DNA of 64,000 nucleotides from Hyphomicrobiales bacterium (GTDB lineage Bacteria > Pseudomonadota > Alphaproteobacteria > Rhizobiales > Rhizobiaceae). The notes under the pieces are model-generated. The model did no database searches and was not told the DNA's origin. It saw nothing but the letters and a program-made list of their open reading frames with translations. The position numbers were made by a program, and so were the translations under genes. Location: the NCBI GenBank assembly GCA_900473915.1, contig UCNG01000001.1, positions 1 through 64,000 of the forward strand, given 5' to 3'. Below, piece after piece: positions 5,829-31,284 of this stretch; position 1 is the first letter of the stretch, and each line of letters starts with the position of its first letter.

Positions 5829-7439
5829 ATGAGCAAGCATATTTCATTTGCAGAAGCCGCTGCACTTATCCCCGACAATGCAGTGGTTTCCGTTTCGTCA
5901 TCGAGCGGCCTTGGCTGCCCGGATATGATGCTGAAGGCCATTGGCGAGCGGTTCGATGCAACCGGCCATCCCCAAAACATCACCACGCTGCACCCGATCG
6001 CGGCGGGCGATATGAGCGGCATCAAGGGTGTCGATTACATCGCCAAGAAGGGGCTTCTCAAGAAGATCATTGGCGGTTCCTATCCGTCCGGGCCATCAAG
6101 CGCCGAGCCGCCGCTGATCTGGCAGATGATCACCAATAACGAGATCCCGGCCTATAATATCCCGTCCGGCATATTGTTCGACATGCACCGCGAAGCTGCC
6201 GCCAAGCGCCCCGGCGTGCTGACCAAAGTGGGGCTTGATACATTCGTCGATCCCAAGCGTCAGGGCACGGCGATGAACGACAAGGCGCGGGAGGAACCTG
6301 TCGTCAAGCATGTCAGCTTTGAGGGCGAGGACTGGCTGTTCTTCCCCAATATCGTGCCGCATGTCACCATCATCCGGGCAACGACTGCGGATGAACGCGG
6401 CAATCTCACCTATGAGCACGAGGGTGCCTATCTCGGCGGTCTGGATCAGGCGCTGGCGGCACGCAACAATGGCGGCATCGTCATTGCGCAGGTGAAGCGC
6501 ATTGCCAAGGAAGGCACGCTGAAGCCGCATGATGTGCGCGTGCCGGGTGTTCTGGTTGATTATATCGTGGTCGATCCCGACCAGAAGCAGACGACGCAGA
6601 CGCTCTATGATCCGGCTATTTCCGGCGAGATTTTCCGCCCGCTGGATACGTTCCGTCTGCCCGAGTTCAATATCCAGAAGGCGATTGCGCGGCGTGTGGC
6701 GCAGGAATTGCAGGCGGGAAGTGCGGTCAATCTTGGCTTTGGCATTTCCGCCAATGTGCCGCGCATTCTGCTGGAAGAGGGCCTGCATGGCGCGGTGACA
6801 TGGGTGATCGAGCAGGGCGCTGTCGGCGGCGTGCCGTTGCTGGATTTCGCCTTTGGCTGCGCATCCAATGCCGACGCTTATATGCCGTCGCCCTATCAGT
6901 TCACCTATTTTCAAGGCGCTGGCTTCGACGCCTCGCTTCTGTCCTTTCTTGAGATCGGACGCGACGGTTCGGTCAATGTGTCGAAGCTTTCATTCCGTCC
7001 GCATGTGACGGCGGGCGCTGGCGGCTTTGTCGATATTACCGCGCGCGCCAGGAAGATTGTTTTCTCGGGCATGTTCAATGCCGGGGCAAAACTTTCGGTC
7101 ACTAACGGCAAACTGGTGATCGAGAAGGAAGGCAAGCTGAAAAAGCTTGTCACGCAAGTCGAGCATGTCACCTTCTCCGGCCCGCGTGGCGTCCAGCAGG
7201 GGCAGGACATTACCTATGTCACCGAGCGCGCCGTGATGAAGCTGACTGCGGACGGCATCGTGCTGACCGAGATTGCGCCCGGTATCGACTTGCAGGCGCA
7301 TATTCTCGATCAGGCTGAGTTTCCGCTGATTGTCTCTGACCGGCTCAAGACCATGGACGAGGCGCTGTTCCGCGAAGAGCCGATAGGACTCACGCTGCCG
7401 CAAAAGCCAGCGCGAAAGCTGGAGGCGCAGCATGGCTGA
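5829..7439 (+). CDS. Acyl-CoA:acetate/3-ketoacid CoA-transferase (YdiF-like, fused subunits)
   Basis: A 536-residue family I CoA-transferase in which the alpha and beta halves are fused, as in YdiF and propionate CoA-transferase. The catalytic glutamate is expected at E328 in IEQGAVGG, matching the E-x-G-x-x-G active-site motif. It would move CoA from acetyl- or succinyl-CoA to a carboxylic-acid intermediate. An in-frame TTG at 5820 is possible but overlaps the previous stop; the ATG at 5829 encodes the normal MSKHISF start. The end overlaps the next gene by eight bases. In context it probably activates the acid made by the downstream aldehyde dehydrogenase. Confidence 0.88.
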   Translation: MSKHISFAEAAALIPDNAVVSVSSSSGLGCPDMMLKAIGERFDATGHPQNITTLHPIAAGDMSGIKGVDYIAKKGLLKKIIGGSYPSGPSSAEPPLIWQMITNNEIPAYNIPSGILFDMHREAAAKRPGVLTKVGLDTFVDPKRQGTAMNDKAREEPVVKHVSFEGEDWLFFPNIVPHVTIIRATTADERGNLTYEHEGAYLGGLDQALAARNNGGIVIAQVKRIAKEGTLKPHDVRVPGVLVDYIVVDPDQKQTTQTLYDPAISGEIFRPLDTFRLPEFNIQKAIARRVAQELQAGSAVNLGFGISANVPRILLEEGLHGAVTWVIEQGAVGGVPLLDFAFGCASNADAYMPSPYQFTYFQGAGFDASLLSFLEIGRDGSVNVSKLSFRPHVTAGAGGFVDITARARKIVFSGMFNAGAKLSVTNGKLVIEKEGKLKKLVTQVEHVTFSGPRGVQQGQDITYVTERAVMKLTADGIVLTEIAPGIDLQAHILDQAEFPLIVSDRLKTMDEALFREEPIGLTLPQKPARKLEAQHG

Positions 7440-8208
7440 CAGAATAGAAATTACCATCGAAAACCACATCGCCGTCATGACGATCAGGCGACCCGAAAAG
7501 CTCAATGCCTTCGATATCGAGCTTTTGCAGGAATTGTCTGCCGCCTGCGACCGGGTGGAGGCGGATAGCCGCGTGCGGGTCGCGATCCTGACCGGTGAAG
7601 GGAAAGCCTTTTCCGCAGGCGGCGACATCAAGGCCTGGGGTGGCATGGAGCCGCAAGAGTTTGGCCATGCCTGGGTGCGCTACGGGCATCGTGTGTTTGA
7701 GCGTCTGGCGACTTTGCGTGTGCCGCTGATCGCGGCGATGAATGGTCATGCGCTGGGCGGCGGGCTGGAACTGGCGGGTGCCGCCGATATCCGCATTGTC
7801 GAGCAGCAGGCGAAGATCGGCCTGCCGGAAACCTCGCTCGGCATGGTGCCCGGATGGTCGGGCACGCAGCGCCTTGTGCGCCGTTTCGGGGCGCAGATCG
7901 TGCGCCGCATGGTGCTGGGCGGCGAAATGTTCACGGCTGACGAAGCGCTGTCGCATGGACTGGTCGATCATGTGGTCGATACGGGCGAAGCCTTGCAGGC
8001 GGCGCAGGACTATGCGGCGCGGGTGGCAAAACGCGGACCGGCAGCGCTCGAAATTTCCAAGCTGATGCTGTCTGTCGCCAATGGCGAGGACAAAGGAACC
8101 GCTGTCGAGGCGCTGGGGTCCATCCTCGTCGCCAAGACTGGCGATCTGAAAGAAGGCGTGCGCTCGTTTGCCGAAAAGCGCGAAGCGAATTTTGAAGGAA
8201 AATGGTGA
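7432..8208 (+). CDS. Enoyl-CoA hydratase/isomerase family protein
   Basis: A 258-residue crotonase-fold protein. The oxyanion-hole segment AFSAGGDIKAW and both glutamates of true hydratases are present (HALGGGLELAG and LPETSLGMVPG), so hydration of a 2-enoyl-CoA is plausible. Its start overlaps the CoA-transferase stop by eight bases and its own stop overlaps the aldehyde dehydrogenase start (ATGA), indicating a translationally coupled operon. The substrate is unknown; a CoA ester formed by the upstream transferase is the obvious candidate. Confidence 0.88.
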   Translation: MADRIEITIENHIAVMTIRRPEKLNAFDIELLQELSAACDRVEADSRVRVAILTGEGKAFSAGGDIKAWGGMEPQEFGHAWVRYGHRVFERLATLRVPLIAAMNGHALGGGLELAGAADIRIVEQQAKIGLPETSLGMVPGWSGTQRLVRRFGAQIVRRMVLGGEMFTADEALSHGLVDHVVDTGEALQAAQDYAARVAKRGPAALEISKLMLSVANGEDKGTAVEALGSILVAKTGDLKEGVRSFAEKREANFEGKW

Positions 8209-9722
8209 TGAGCGTTATTGTGAAACCGCAGCCGTTGACCGGGCTGGAAGTCCGCGAATTCTCCATGCTGATCGATGGCAAATGGGTGGGCAGTGATAGC
8301 GGAAAGAGCATTGAGCGCGCGGCGCCCGGCCATGGCGTCACCGTCAGCCGCTATCCGGCGGGCAACAAGGCCGATGTGGAGCGCGCTGTTGCGAGCGCCC
8401 GCAAGGCTTTCGATGATGGGCGCTGGTCGTCGAAAACTGCTTCGCAGCGTTCGCTGGTGCTGCTCAAAGCCGCTGATCTGATCGAGGCGCGGGCGGAAGA
8501 GCTTGCCTATCTCGATGCGATTGAAGCCGGCAAACCAATTTCGCAGGTGCGGGGAGAAATCGGTGGCGCTGTCGATATCTGGCGCTATGCGGCAGCACTT
8601 GCACGCGACCTGCATGGCGAAAGCTACAACACGCTGGGCGATGGCACTTTGGGCGTCGTGCTGCGCGAGGCGATTGGTGTGGTGTCGATCATCACGCCGT
8701 GGAATTTCCCGTTCCTGATCGTCGGCCAAAAGCTGCCTTTCGCGCTGGCTGCCGGTTGCACCGCAGTGGTGAAGCCTTCGGAACTGACCTCCGGCTCGAC
8801 ATTGCTGCTCGGTGAAATTCTGGCCGAGGCAGGTGTGCCGGACGGCGTCGTCAATATCGTCACCGGAACGGGTGCCGATGTCGGCCAGCATATGAGCACG
8901 CATCCGGATGTGGACATGGTGTCGTTCACCGGCTCGACCGGCGTGGGCAAGCTGACCATGGCCAATGCGGCGCAAACGCTGAAAAAAGTGTCGCTGGAGC
9001 TTGGCGGCAAGAACCCGCAAATCCTGTTTCCGGATGCGGATATGGATGCCTTTATCGACGCGGCGGTCTTCGGCGCATGGTTCAATGCGGGCGAGTGCTG
9101 CAATGCCGGGTCGCGCCTGATCGTGCACCGGTCGATTGTCGATGAGATTGTCGGGCGCGTGGCCGATCTGTCGAAAAAGGTGATCGTTGGCGATCCGCTT
9201 GATGTCAGCACGCAGGTCGGCGCGATCATCACGCCGCAGCATCTGACAAAGGTTGGCGCCTATGTCGATCAGGCCAAAAAGGCAGGCGCTGCGATTGCCC
9301 ATGGCGGCGATGTGCTGGACCTCGGCCTTGGCCAATATATGGGACCGACCATCCTTGCCGGTGTAAAGGCCGACATGGCCGTGGCGCGCGAGGAAGTGTT
9401 CGGGCCGGTTTTGTCGGTGCTGTCCTTCGATACGGTGGATGAGGCGATCTCGATTGCCAATGCGGTTGATTACGGGCTTTCGGCGGGCGTGTGGAGCCGC
9501 GATTTCGATACCTGCATGACCATCGGGCGCAAGGTGCGGGCGGGTACTGTCTGGATGAATACATTCATGGACGGCACGCCGGAACTGCCTTTCGGCGGCT
9601 ATCGCCAGTCCGGTCTGGGCCGCGAATTGGGGCGTCATGCGGTGGAGGATTACACCGAAACCAAGACGCTCAATATGCATATCGGCGCGCGGACGGGCTG
9701 GTGGATGCCGCAGGCTAGGTAG
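8208..9722 (+). CDS. NAD(P)-dependent aldehyde dehydrogenase
   Basis: A 504-residue ALDH superfamily enzyme of standard length. The catalytic Cys lies in FNAGECCNAGSRL and the general-base Glu in LELGGKNPQI; ITPWNFPFLI is the usual NAD-binding helix start. I prefer the ATG at 8208 (AAGGA about eight bases upstream, ATGA overlap with the hydratase stop) over the ATG two codons earlier. It should oxidise an aldehyde, perhaps produced by one of the two GMC oxidoreductases downstream, to the acid handled by the CoA-transferase (inference). Confidence 0.92.
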   Translation: MSVIVKPQPLTGLEVREFSMLIDGKWVGSDSGKSIERAAPGHGVTVSRYPAGNKADVERAVASARKAFDDGRWSSKTASQRSLVLLKAADLIEARAEELAYLDAIEAGKPISQVRGEIGGAVDIWRYAAALARDLHGESYNTLGDGTLGVVLREAIGVVSIITPWNFPFLIVGQKLPFALAAGCTAVVKPSELTSGSTLLLGEILAEAGVPDGVVNIVTGTGADVGQHMSTHPDVDMVSFTGSTGVGKLTMANAAQTLKKVSLELGGKNPQILFPDADMDAFIDAAVFGAWFNAGECCNAGSRLIVHRSIVDEIVGRVADLSKKVIVGDPLDVSTQVGAIITPQHLTKVGAYVDQAKKAGAAIAHGGDVLDLGLGQYMGPTILAGVKADMAVAREEVFGPVLSVLSFDTVDEAISIANAVDYGLSAGVWSRDFDTCMTIGRKVRAGTVWMNTFMDGTPELPFGGYRQSGLGRELGRHAVEDYTETKTLNMHIGARTGWWMPQAR

Positions 9723-28604: not shown

Positions 28605-30518
28605 ATGTCGGGCCAGAAATCAGCAATAGGCGATAATTCGCGCGAGCGGAAACCGGGGCCGGTGGATTCCGAACCGTTCAAGCGTGCTCTAACGGCTTGC
28701 GTCCGCGCCATTTCCGGCGAGCATGAGCTGGAAGTGGCGTTTACCAATGATCGCCCGGCCTTGAGCGCCAATCGCGCCCGCCTTCCCGACCTGCCGAAGC
28801 GTCCGACCGAGCATGATATCGCCGTCACGCGCGGCCTTGGCGATTCCATGGCGCTGCGCCAGGCGCGCCACAATCCGCGCATTCACGCCAGCCTTGCCCC
28901 GGAAGGCAAGCAGGCGCGTGCGATCTACGACGCGGTCGAGCAGGCGCGTGTCGAAGCCATCGGCGCCCGCGCCATGGCAGGCATGGCGGACAACCTCTCC
29001 ACCATGCTGGCCGACAAATATTCGAAAGCCAATTTCTCTGCCGTCACCGCCAAGGAGGACGCGCCGCTTGAGGAAGCCGTGTCGCTTCTGCTGCGTGAAA
29101 AGCTGACCGGACGAGCCGCGCCTGCGGAAGCCGGTCAGGTGCTGGAACTGTGGCGCGACTGGATCGAGCAGAAAGCCGCCGCCGACATTGCGCGGCTTGG
29201 CGACAATCTCGAAGACCAGCAGGCTTTTGCGCGCACGGTGCGCGACATGCTGGCCTCTATGGACATGGCGGAAGAGCTGTCGCAGGAAGAGCCGAGCGAC
29301 GAGGAAGAGCAGAACGACGAGCAGACGCCGGATTCCGACGAGAACGAGGAAGGCGGCGACGAGAGCCAGGAAGGTTCCGATTCCGCTGAAAGCGAGGAAC
29401 CCGACGATTCGAGCGACGAGGGCGAGCAGGGCGAAATGGATGCCGCCGATGCTTCCGCCGACGACATGGACGACAGCGAGGATATCGACGCGGAAACGCC
29501 GGGCGATACGCGCCGCCCGAACCAGCCTTTCGCGAATTTTGCCGAGCATGTCGACTACAAGGTCTTCACGCGCGAGTTCGACGAGGAGGTCGAGGCGTCC
29601 GATCTTTGCGATGAGGCGGAACTCGACCGCCTGCGCGGCTTCCTCGACAAGCAGCTTGCCAATCTGCAAGGCGTGGTGGGGCGTCTCGCCAACCGCTTGC
29701 AGCGCCGCCTGATGGCGCAGCAGAACCGCTCGTGGGATTTCGATCTGGAAGAGGGCTATCTCGATTCGGCGCGTCTGGTGCGCATCGTCATCGATCCGAC
29801 GCAGCCGCTTTCCTACAAGCAGGAGCGCGATACGGATTTTCGCGATACGGTCGTGACGCTGGTGCTGGACAATTCCGGCTCCATGCGCGGCCGCCCGATC
29901 ACGGTCGCCGCGACGTGCGCCGATATTCTTGCCCGCACGCTGGAACGCTGCGGCGTGAAGGTGGAAATCCTGGGCTTCACCACCAAGGCGTGGAAGGGTG
30001 GCCAGTCGCGCGAAGCATGGCTTGGACGCGGCAAGCCTGCCAATCCGGGCCGCCTCAACGATCTGCGCCATATCGTCTACAAGAGCGCCGATGCGCCCTG
30101 GCGGCGTTCCCGACGCAATCTGGGCCTGATGATGCGCGAAGGGCTGCTGAAGGAAAACATCGATGGCGAGGCGCTGATCTGGGCGCATCAGCGTCTGCTG
30201 GGCCGGCCCGAGCAGCGCAAGATCCTGATGATGATTTCGGATGGCGCGCCGGTCGACGATTCGACGCTTTCCGTCAATCCCGGCAACTATCTGGAGCGGC
30301 ACCTGCGCGCCGTGATCGAGGAAATCGAGACGCGTTCGCCGGTGGAACTGATCGCCATCGGCATCGGCCATGACGTCACGCGCTATTATCAGCGCGCCGT
30401 CACCATCGTCGATGCGGAAGAACTGGCTGGCGCCATGACCGAGCAGCTTGCTTCGCTGTTCGAAGAGCAGGGTGCTGCGGCCTCCGGCAAGGGCAAGCGC
30501 CGGGCTGGTAGACGATAG
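28605..30518 (+). CDS. cobT: Cobaltochelatase subunit CobT
   Basis: A 637-residue CobT, the VWA-domain partner of CobS. An N-terminal helical region leads into a strongly acidic segment (about residues 225-305, runs such as [20 protein letters not shown]), then the C-terminal von Willebrand A domain with the metal-binding DNSGSM motif near residue 425 and [12 protein letters not shown]. The acidic linker is typical of CobT and of BchD-like chelatase subunits. It ends in a basic tail ([10 protein letters not shown]) and is followed by two hairpins. Confidence 0.95.
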
Positions 30519-30600: not shown

Positions 30601-31257
30601 TTATGGCTTCTCTGCTGTAATCCGATTGGGCGCGTAAAGCGTCGGGGCGAAGACTGCAAGGATTGCCCCATAGGGAATCAGCATCAGCGTTCCCATGATG
30701 ACCTTCACGAAGAAGTCGCCGAAGGCGAGCGACGCCCAGAGCGGCACGCCGAGGCCGAGAAAGGATGCCGGTTCGGCCAGCGACGAATCGGGCATTCCGG
30801 TCAGCCTGTCGATCCAGGCGAAACCAGCCGCGAAGGCAATCGAGAAGAACAGGATCGTATCGAGCACCGAGCCGAACATGGCGGCGGCAAAGGGGGCCTT
30901 CCACCAGGTCTTGCGGCGCAGGCGGTCGAAGACGGTAATATCCATCAGCTGTGCGAAGAGGAAAGCGGAGCCTGAGGCAATCGCGATGCGCGGGGTTGCC
31001 AGCCAGATCGACATCGCGACGCCCAGTACGAAACCGGCATAGACCACTTTACGCGCCGCGGCAGGGCCGAAGCGGCGATTCGTCAGGTCATTGACCAGAA
31101 AGGCGACGGGATAGGTGAAGGCACCGTAGGTCAGCACTTCACCGAGGCCGAAATGCTGGAACGGATATTGGACAAGTATGTTCGACGCGGCAACTGCCAC
31201 GCACATGGCCAGTATCGCAGGCATAAGCCGGGAATAAGAAGGTGTCTCGATTGACAT
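30601..31257 (-). CDS. yhhQ: Queuosine precursor transporter (YhhQ/VUT family)
   Basis: A 218-residue membrane protein with about six spans and YhhQ-family signatures such as VAASNILVQYP, YPVAFLVNDLTNRRFGP and ASGSAFLFAQLMDITVFDRLR. YhhQ imports preQ0/preQ1 for queuosine modification of tRNA. The start codon at 31257 is preceded by a preQ1-I-like aptamer whose 3' strand of P1 includes part of the AGGA ribosome site and whose pseudoknot would pair with the AUG itself, giving ligand-dependent translational shut-off (inference). It lies downstream of rpmB on the same strand, just past the rpmB terminator. Confidence 0.9.
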   Translation of the reverse strand: MSIETPSYSRLMPAILAMCVAVAASNILVQYPFQHFGLGEVLTYGAFTYPVAFLVNDLTNRRFGPAAARKVVYAGFVLGVAMSIWLATPRIAIASGSAFLFAQLMDITVFDRLRRKTWWKAPFAAAMFGSVLDTILFFSIAFAAGFAWIDRLTGMPDSSLAEPASFLGLGVPLWASLAFGDFFVKVIMGTLMLIPYGAILAVFAPTLYAPNRITAEKP

Positions 31258-31284
31258 TTTTTTATCCTGGGTGATGGAACCAGC
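31255..31284 (-). promoter_or_regulatory. Candidate preQ1-I riboswitch in front of yhhQ
   Basis: On the minus strand a stem CTGG (31283-31280) pairs with CCAG (31270-31267) around the loop TTCCATCAC, followed by an A-rich tail containing ATAAAAAA and then the ATG of yhhQ. Known preQ1-I aptamers have the same order: short P1, loop starting UUC, a C just before the 3' P1 strand that pairs with the ligand, then AUAAAAAA and a three-base pseudoknot. Here loop CAU (31276-31274) is complementary to the AUG start codon. The loop is three bases shorter than in the Bacillus example. The neighbouring gene is a queuosine-precursor transporter, which supports the call. Confidence 0.7.

Follow-up and report, generated by a model that had tools for sequence, protein, structure and literature searches.

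In a 64,000-nucleotide stretch of Hyphomicrobiales DNA (contig UCNG01000001.1, positions 1 to 64,000; "the window" in the following), the queuosine-precursor transporter gene yhhQ is preceded by a short RNA element whose 3' end is the start codon of the gene itself. Judging from sequence comparison, we consider it very probable that this 29-nucleotide (nt) element is a translational OFF-switch for pre-queuosine1 (preQ1), akin to the type III preQ1-I riboswitch known from Escherichia coli, with the target of its pseudoknot shifted to the start codon. Established in this study are its sequence, its conservation, its association with the gene and, by covariation, the pairing of its helices P1 and P2.

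The element reads CTGG-TTCCATCAC-CCAG-GAT-AAAAAAATG and occupies positions 31283-31255 on the minus strand, on which all features described below are found. The 5' strand of P1, CUGG (31280..31283), is paired in 30/30 distinct rows of an alignment from related genomes, and its 3' strand is CCAG (31267..31270), the last two bases of which are the first two of the Shine-Dalgarno sequence AGGA (31265..31268), so that half of the latter lies within P1. Both strands enclose the loop TTCCATCAC (RNA UUCCAUCAC, 31271..31279), and within this loop the triplet CAT (31276-31274) is complementary to the start ATG. P1 is followed by a GAT linker (31266-31264) and a run of seven A (31263-31257). The last of these also opens the AUG, and GAU together with the other six makes up the loop L3 (31258..31266). 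In the predicted pseudoknot the anti-start-codon triplet CAU (31274..31276) is the 5' strand of P2 and the start codon AUG (31255..31257) its 3' strand, with the pairs 31274-31257, 31275-31256 and 31276-31255. An initial annotation, made from the sequence alone, had described a preQ1-I-like riboswitch at this site, and direct reading confirmed the sequence, strand and positions it gave for P1, loop, tail and ATG. The open reading frame (ORF) that opens at this ATG is yhhQ (30601..31257, COG1738/QPTR); it encodes 218 amino acids, belongs to Pfam Vut_1 and scores 97 bits against the NCBIfam model TIGR00697 'queuosine precursor transporter', which has a cut-off of 50.95.

The E. coli K-12 yhhQ leader reads ATTGGG TTCCCTCAC CCCAAT GGTTAATC AAAAAGG TACAAT ATG and shares with the published wild-type 36-mer both the linker GGUUAAUC and the length, 36 nt if counted as far as GG (PMC10622847). 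For this type III riboswitch a crystal structure of a 30-mer is described, and the wild type binds preQ1 with a dissociation constant of 57.9 nM (PMC10622847). Numbered as in E. coli, the window loop is U6 U7 C8 C9 A10 U11 C12 A13 C14. C14 is the specificity base of the E. coli RNA (PMC10622847) and, by this mapping, its counterpart at position 31271 would be the specificity base for the ligand. The loops of E. coli (UUCCCUCAC) and of the window (UUCCAUCAC) differ in one of nine bases, a C to A change, which is matched by G to U in the partner strand: C-C-U:A-G-G, directed at the Shine-Dalgarno sequence, becomes C-A-U:A-U-G, directed at the start codon. In the crystal, P2 consists of U11-A28, C10-G29 and C9-G30 (PMC10622847); mapped on it, the window has U11-A28, A10-U29 and C9-G30, with A28-U29-G30 being the start codon. 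The same structure has A27 in contact with preQ1, U7 touching both A27 and preQ1, and a C8-A28-U11 triple (PMC10622847).

The shared features go beyond these bases. Both elements have yhhQ downstream, a 9-nt loop UUCCNUCAC with UU at its start, AC before the 3' strand of P1, P2 at loop positions 4-6 and a poly-A L3, the counterpart of L3 in type III being the poly-A region (PMC10622847). Control by the E. coli riboswitch is translational, as it would be in our reading of the window element. Of the features used to describe type III, the window thus has the short pyrimidine-rich loop with UU start and AC end, the A-rich 3' tail (GAU plus seven A, near-constant in relatives) and the position upstream of yhhQ; among relatives, one loop subtype, UUC, mostly keeps the UU start and the other, UGN, lacks it. 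Type III has been reported almost exclusively from gammaproteobacteria or Pseudomonadota, with AAGG as target (PMC10622847, PMC11625349). In the window, by contrast, the P2 strand is not the Shine-Dalgarno AAGG; it is the AUG. Further differences concern P1, which has 4 bp and is nearly fixed, unlike that of E. coli type III, the linker, with 2-4 nt among the relatives where E. coli-type leaders range from about 5 to over 30 nt, and a fourth P2 pair reaching into codon 2 in the UGN subtype. Because its P2 target is AUG and not AAGG, we file the element as a related variant and not as a member of type III. Going by sequence and covariation, it has the features of preQ1 class I in the broad sense, namely an H-type pseudoknot, a loop-terminal specificity C and an A-rich L3. 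The class proposed in the initial annotation is refined in that the kind resembled is the short-loop type III and not the Bacillus type.

For a wider view of the E. coli type we collected the 29 genomes of the phylum, outside the class of the window, that matched E. coli YhhQ (29/249 searched). With E. coli included, 26 of the 30 leaders contain the E. coli-type element, and a 27th (L293) was recognised by eye with a longer linker. Their outer P1 pairs vary, the loop always contains CCU and the A-run is always followed by AGG, in a scan that itself required TTCC in the loop.

Evidence for the window element comes from its relatives. Folded on its own, the 37-nt stretch has an ordinary energy (z = -0.15), and the case rests on conservation and covariation rather than on stability. 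A degenerate form of the motif, with up to three mismatches, occurs once in the window and in 0/100 shuffles. We scanned 101 whole genomes of the GTDB family of Brucella, Phyllobacterium, Nitratireductor and Bartonella (the family in the following) with a pattern that includes CAT, and found a match in 86/101 (85/100 genera). In G040 the match is a stray with three mismatches that does not lie at yhhQ; without it, 85/101 genomes and 84/100 genera remain, and a backward-control pattern had 0 matches in the same 101 genomes. G650 has one 3-mismatch stray in addition to its own element; these two strays aside, yhhQ is the sole gene found with the element in front of it. Two genomes that lack a pattern match (G037, G657) carry a form with a 10-nt loop, which is invisible to that pattern. 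On contig C12 of G040, two yhhQ matches stand close together (about 7004-7609 and 9229-9525), the first of them with no recognisable element.

At the level of individual loci, the element was found at 73/80 named loci with a yhhQ relative, all seven misses being Bartonella, and in 121/130 further family leaders, where it is missing or degraded in 9/130. The initial annotation pointed to the relatives as a check: the element is mostly kept there, with the losses just named, and among the scored elements not one has lost the complementarity of loop and tail. The 130 leaders were chosen from listed coordinates, out of 280 genomes with a match, and since they partly overlap the 80 named loci, the resulting 194 elements are not 194 species. 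By design the scan fixed P1 pairing (4 bp ending in GG), the loop ends (T...C) and the A-run into TG, and left the CAT and the base at +4 free. The CAU triplet is nonetheless present in 194/194 scored elements. The start ATG is in frame with YhhQ in 192/194 of them and in 34/34 further ones. Over 183 leaders (11/194 elements of other length or cut short were left out), columns of the element show 94-100% identity and those of the flanks 29-63%; exceptions within the element are loop positions -21, -20 and -16 and linker position -8, with 66-82%. The linker ahead of the A-run has 3 nt in most members of the family. No match to the strict pattern was found outside the family: in a search of 385 genomes of the class, G001, the nearest relative, was the sole one to have it. 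Among 29 yhhQ leaders of the order inspected by eye the element is present only in L157, with a decayed copy in L133, both members of the same GTDB family. Two loci of the set, titled Comamonas sp. MAG (L034) and Bacillus subtilis (L078), are of Brucella and Pseudochrobactrum type, respectively, and probably stem from mislabelled or contaminated assemblies.

The pairing itself was assessed in a cross-clade alignment of 32 distinct rows, 21 of them from the family and 11 of the E. coli type. It leaves out the linkers and the elements with 10-nt loops, of which there were 3 in the family and 6 among the E. coli type. The tails were aligned without linkers because a first MAFFT alignment had misplaced those of the E. 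coli type. On these rows, P1 and P2 comprise 99.6% standard pairs with a covariation score of 0.385; the shuffled mean is 0.103, 0/500 shuffles scored as high, and sliding the strands by 1 to 3 columns gave at most 0.058. The alignment of the family alone has 30 rows and leaves out 7/37 distinct elements of other length.

A separate line of evidence lies beyond the start codon, at base +4, the first base of codon 2. In the 194 elements, loop position 3 and base +4 go together as UGG with C (54/54), UGC with G (6/6) and UGA with U (3/3), so that G, C and A in UGN loops face C, G and U in 63/63. Elements with UUC loops have A (43), C (53) or U (35) at +4 and never G (0 of 131), where a crude base rate for +4 G is 26/78 among the window ATG ORFs of at least 200 codons, spurious ones included. 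The window member is of the UUC type, and its +4 base, U (31254), is unpaired with loop position 3. Fixed beforehand, the rule held in 34/34 further genomes (UGC/G 5/5, UGG/C 11/11, UUC with non-G 18/18; CAT was part of the search pattern here too), 33 of which were blind, as the +4 base of G656 (UGG) had already been visible. A quick tree built from 136 YhhQ proteins requires 12 or more changes of the loop class; if only supported branches are counted, UGC still needs at least 4 changes and UGG at least 3. One genus code (g409) holds both UGG/C and UGC/G. As a side observation, base +5 is C in 102/131 UUC-type and in 4/63 UGN members.

We take the comparison within the family as strong evidence of pairing, in the RNA, between the loop and both the AUG and base +4. 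The pseudoknot between loop CAU and AUG, as first proposed in the initial annotation, is thereby supported from three sides: conservation in 84/100 genera, the compensatory change relative to E. coli type III and the covariation with codon 2. One might argue that the complementary bases are inverted repeats at the DNA level as well (GCAT...ATGC, CTGG...CCAG) and form the operator of a transcription factor. However, the arms interleave as in an H-type pseudoknot and one of them is the start codon, they agree with the type III RNA in register and spacing, and the lack of +4 G in UUC members (0/131 and 0/18) is not predicted by an operator. We thus regard an operator as very improbable.

In addition to the pseudoknot, the initial annotation had assumed that the ligand would mask both start signals at once. 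AGGA is indeed present in most members and half of it lies in P1, yet three genomes (L224, L287, L322) have CC instead of GA right after CCAG, with hairpin, loop and A-run intact. L322 keeps the old AUG in the yhhQ frame. In L224 and L287 yhhQ is read in another frame, from AUGs 7 and/or 13 nt downstream, a change that may be due to sequencing error. Both carry GGA directly after the old AUG, and therefore the pseudoknot may again hide a Shine-Dalgarno sequence there. Judged by these members, the pseudoknot outlasts the upstream Shine-Dalgarno sequence, whose part would be secondary.

How might such an element work? Without ligand, the 30S subunit would use AGGA and AUG, and the importer would be made. 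If preQ1 or a close precursor were plentiful, it would bind between P1 and P2 and pair with the loop-terminal C. The bound ligand would lock the loop C-A-U on A-U-G while the A-run would lie along P1; in UGN relatives the pseudoknot would gain a fourth pair, with the base that opens codon 2. With the AUG locked, initiation would be blocked and import would fall, which amounts to feedback. In this scheme we infer the ligand, its binding, the OFF direction and the block of initiation from the sequence.

Several results weigh against this reading and have to be considered together. The first come from model searches. Compared with Rfam at gathering thresholds, the window yielded only a tRNA. The preQ1-I model RF00522, which the initial annotation had proposed as a check, gave 12.2 bits on the window element at a cut-off of 39 (E 2.5), and at its cut-off it found 0/20 family leaders and 0/199 genomes of the order. 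This miss decides nothing, because the same model also misses the validated E. coli leader: on the proven E. coli yhhQ leader (L131 9120-9230), Rfam had no match up to E 10. Membership in RF00522, failing on its positive control, was dropped as a deciding test. Rfam 15 cut-offs were likewise reached in 0/20 element-bearing E. coli-type loci (from L292-L320), and there is a gap for type III preQ1-I in this library. We built our own covariance model, R1, from 16 E. coli-type elements, leaving out the linkers and 6/22 distinct elements (four with 10-nt loops, one with a long linker, one identical without linker). R1 gave 27.5 bits on the E. coli leader, which is one of its 16 members. It hit the exact site in the window, but with 8.7 bits (E 1.3), third of seven hits. 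In 60 family leaders it matched the element eight times on the right strand, each time with 10.5 bits (E 0.55), and two chance matches on the wrong strand scored higher (L224 with 14.6, L201 with 13.7 bits). The R1 score does not set the element apart from noise.

Limits of the covariation point in the same direction. Changes on both sides of a pair number only 3 in the cross-clade alignment, and shuffles match this in 408/500. The A-U/C-G change in P2 divides exactly by clade, and therefore may be a single event, which is beyond what the shuffle control addresses. Within the family P1 barely varies, the only change being C-G to U-G in 3/30 rows. Counted as independent pairs on the tree, with L361 left out, UGC against +4 G has only 4 supported ones (4/4 agree, sign test p = 0.125; 8 pairs if the best tree is taken irrespective of support), and UGG against +4 C has 3, of which on average 2.5 agree, 0.5 show no difference and none is opposite. 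With a P1 of only 4 bp and with Rfam and covariance-model scores at noise level, one might see in the site a common ribosome-binding site whose spacer is A-rich and which carries a short hairpin by chance. This explanation was ruled out by the shuffles and by the genome scan with its empty backward control; the +4 rule, held in every further genome, speaks against it as well, and we assign chance a negligible probability.

The remaining objections concern the ligand. Binding of preQ1 and control of expression are predicted from sequence, and for the UGN subtype the ligand is less certain, because its loops change U7, the base that touches preQ1 in the E. coli crystal. In a chosen sample, the queuosine enzymes TGT and QueA were found in 20/20 element-bearing genomes each, which favours our reading, and QueF above its cut-off in 12/20; therefore preQ1 may be made in only part of the group. 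Among eleven yhhQ genomes lacking an intact element, TGT is found in 11, QueA in 7 and a clear QueF in 2; G224 has, in addition, a weak QueF match barely above the cut-off, which we take for a related fold. Bartonella is described as having lost queuosine synthesis early, most members being reported to lack the queuosine genes except tgt (PMC11570991). Despite this reported loss 17/24 Bartonella loci retain the element, and because of these 17 the link between queuosine loss and missing elements is loose.

Two alternatives follow from here. The same pseudoknot could respond to another small molecule, such as preQ0, queuine or guanine. E. coli YhhQ is reported to salvage both preQ0 and preQ1 (PMC10622847, PMC5372724), and the incomplete presence of QueF as well as the altered pocket base U7 of the UGN subtype would fit such a ligand. 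On the other hand, the UUC subtype keeps the pocket letters U6, U7, A13 (in most members), C14 and A27, and the affinity of the E. coli RNA for preQ0 is given as about 138-fold weaker (PMC10622847). We consider another ligand unlikely. Alternatively, the element might do without any ligand, its pseudoknot tuning or timing initiation, or a protein binding to it. The extreme sequence conservation could suit a protein site, the helices alone are silent on a ligand, and the hairpin energy is ordinary. This is countered by a loop and A-run near-identical to those of a preQ1 aptamer that has been crystallised and that precedes the same gene, and by the restriction of the element to yhhQ, the two 3-mismatch strays aside. 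A ligand-free element thus appears quite improbable, and we maintain the preQ1 OFF-switch as the preferred reading.

In a comparison with other known systems, the preQ1-I types I and II (Can, Tte/Bsu; RF00522) share the H-type pseudoknot and the loop-terminal specificity C (PMC11625349), but their pseudoknots have larger loops and P2 is directed at other targets (PMC10622847). The SAM-II riboswitch is described as one whose ligand-stabilised pseudoknot itself hides an initiation signal, as would the window element; SAM-II hides the ribosome-binding site, however, and the window element would hide the AUG (PMC10907184). In the add adenine riboswitch of Vibrio vulnificus the AUG is occluded along with the ribosome-binding site, yet there a separate sequester hairpin, formed when no ligand is bound, does the masking and not the aptamer's own pseudoknot (PMC10907184). 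Direct occlusion by a ligand-stabilised pseudoknot is established elsewhere, with the ribosome-binding site as target (PMC10907184).

Among the matches listed in a literature search, the portions of the papers available contained no description of this start-codon element, and the words yhhQ, queuosine and preQ1 were not found in the main text of two large motif-discovery papers. According to PMC5372724, which cites Roth 2007, McCown 2014 and RegPrecise, yhhQ stands under various preQ1 riboswitch classes in different bacteria, and the element may already be mentioned in one of those three sources. We regard it as probable that the element adds a fourth kind to the preQ1-I riboswitches, one that is widespread in the family and in which the 3' strand of a ligand-gated pseudoknot is the AUG and, in one subtype, also the first base of codon 2. 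Such an element would lie partly in coding sequence, would restrict the second residue of the protein and would have a dispensable upstream Shine-Dalgarno sequence. If this is true, an aptamer that holds the AUG in its own ligand-binding pseudoknot would block initiation in a most direct way, and it would illustrate how one compensatory base pair can shift an aptamer between initiation signals. In addition, a large bacterial group where Rfam sees nothing gains a queuosine-salvage gene that is probably regulated. Since Rfam 15 recognised 0/21 tested E. coli-type loci, E. coli included, more switches of this sort may lack annotation.

The surroundings of yhhQ contain some minor features. The gene for ribosomal protein L28, rpmB, lies upstream, and the cobalamin biosynthesis gene cobT (28605-30518) adjoins yhhQ. 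A scan for promoters and terminators flagged none near yhhQ and no promoter-like pair in the window. By eye, we noted a terminator-like inverted repeat, A6-GGCCG...CGGCC-T6, at 31314-31285 between rpmB and yhhQ, which is absent from the list of that scan and stops one base short of the element. Relatives, too, have GC-rich hairpins directly before the element (e.g. L187, L194, L195, L199). Just before the inverted repeat, TTGACA or a close form stands at 31319-31314; most Brucella, Ochrobactrum and Falsochrobactrum leaders (L031-L056) have in common, again by eye, a TTGACA-like form, and it is kept even where their DNA further upstream is unrelated.
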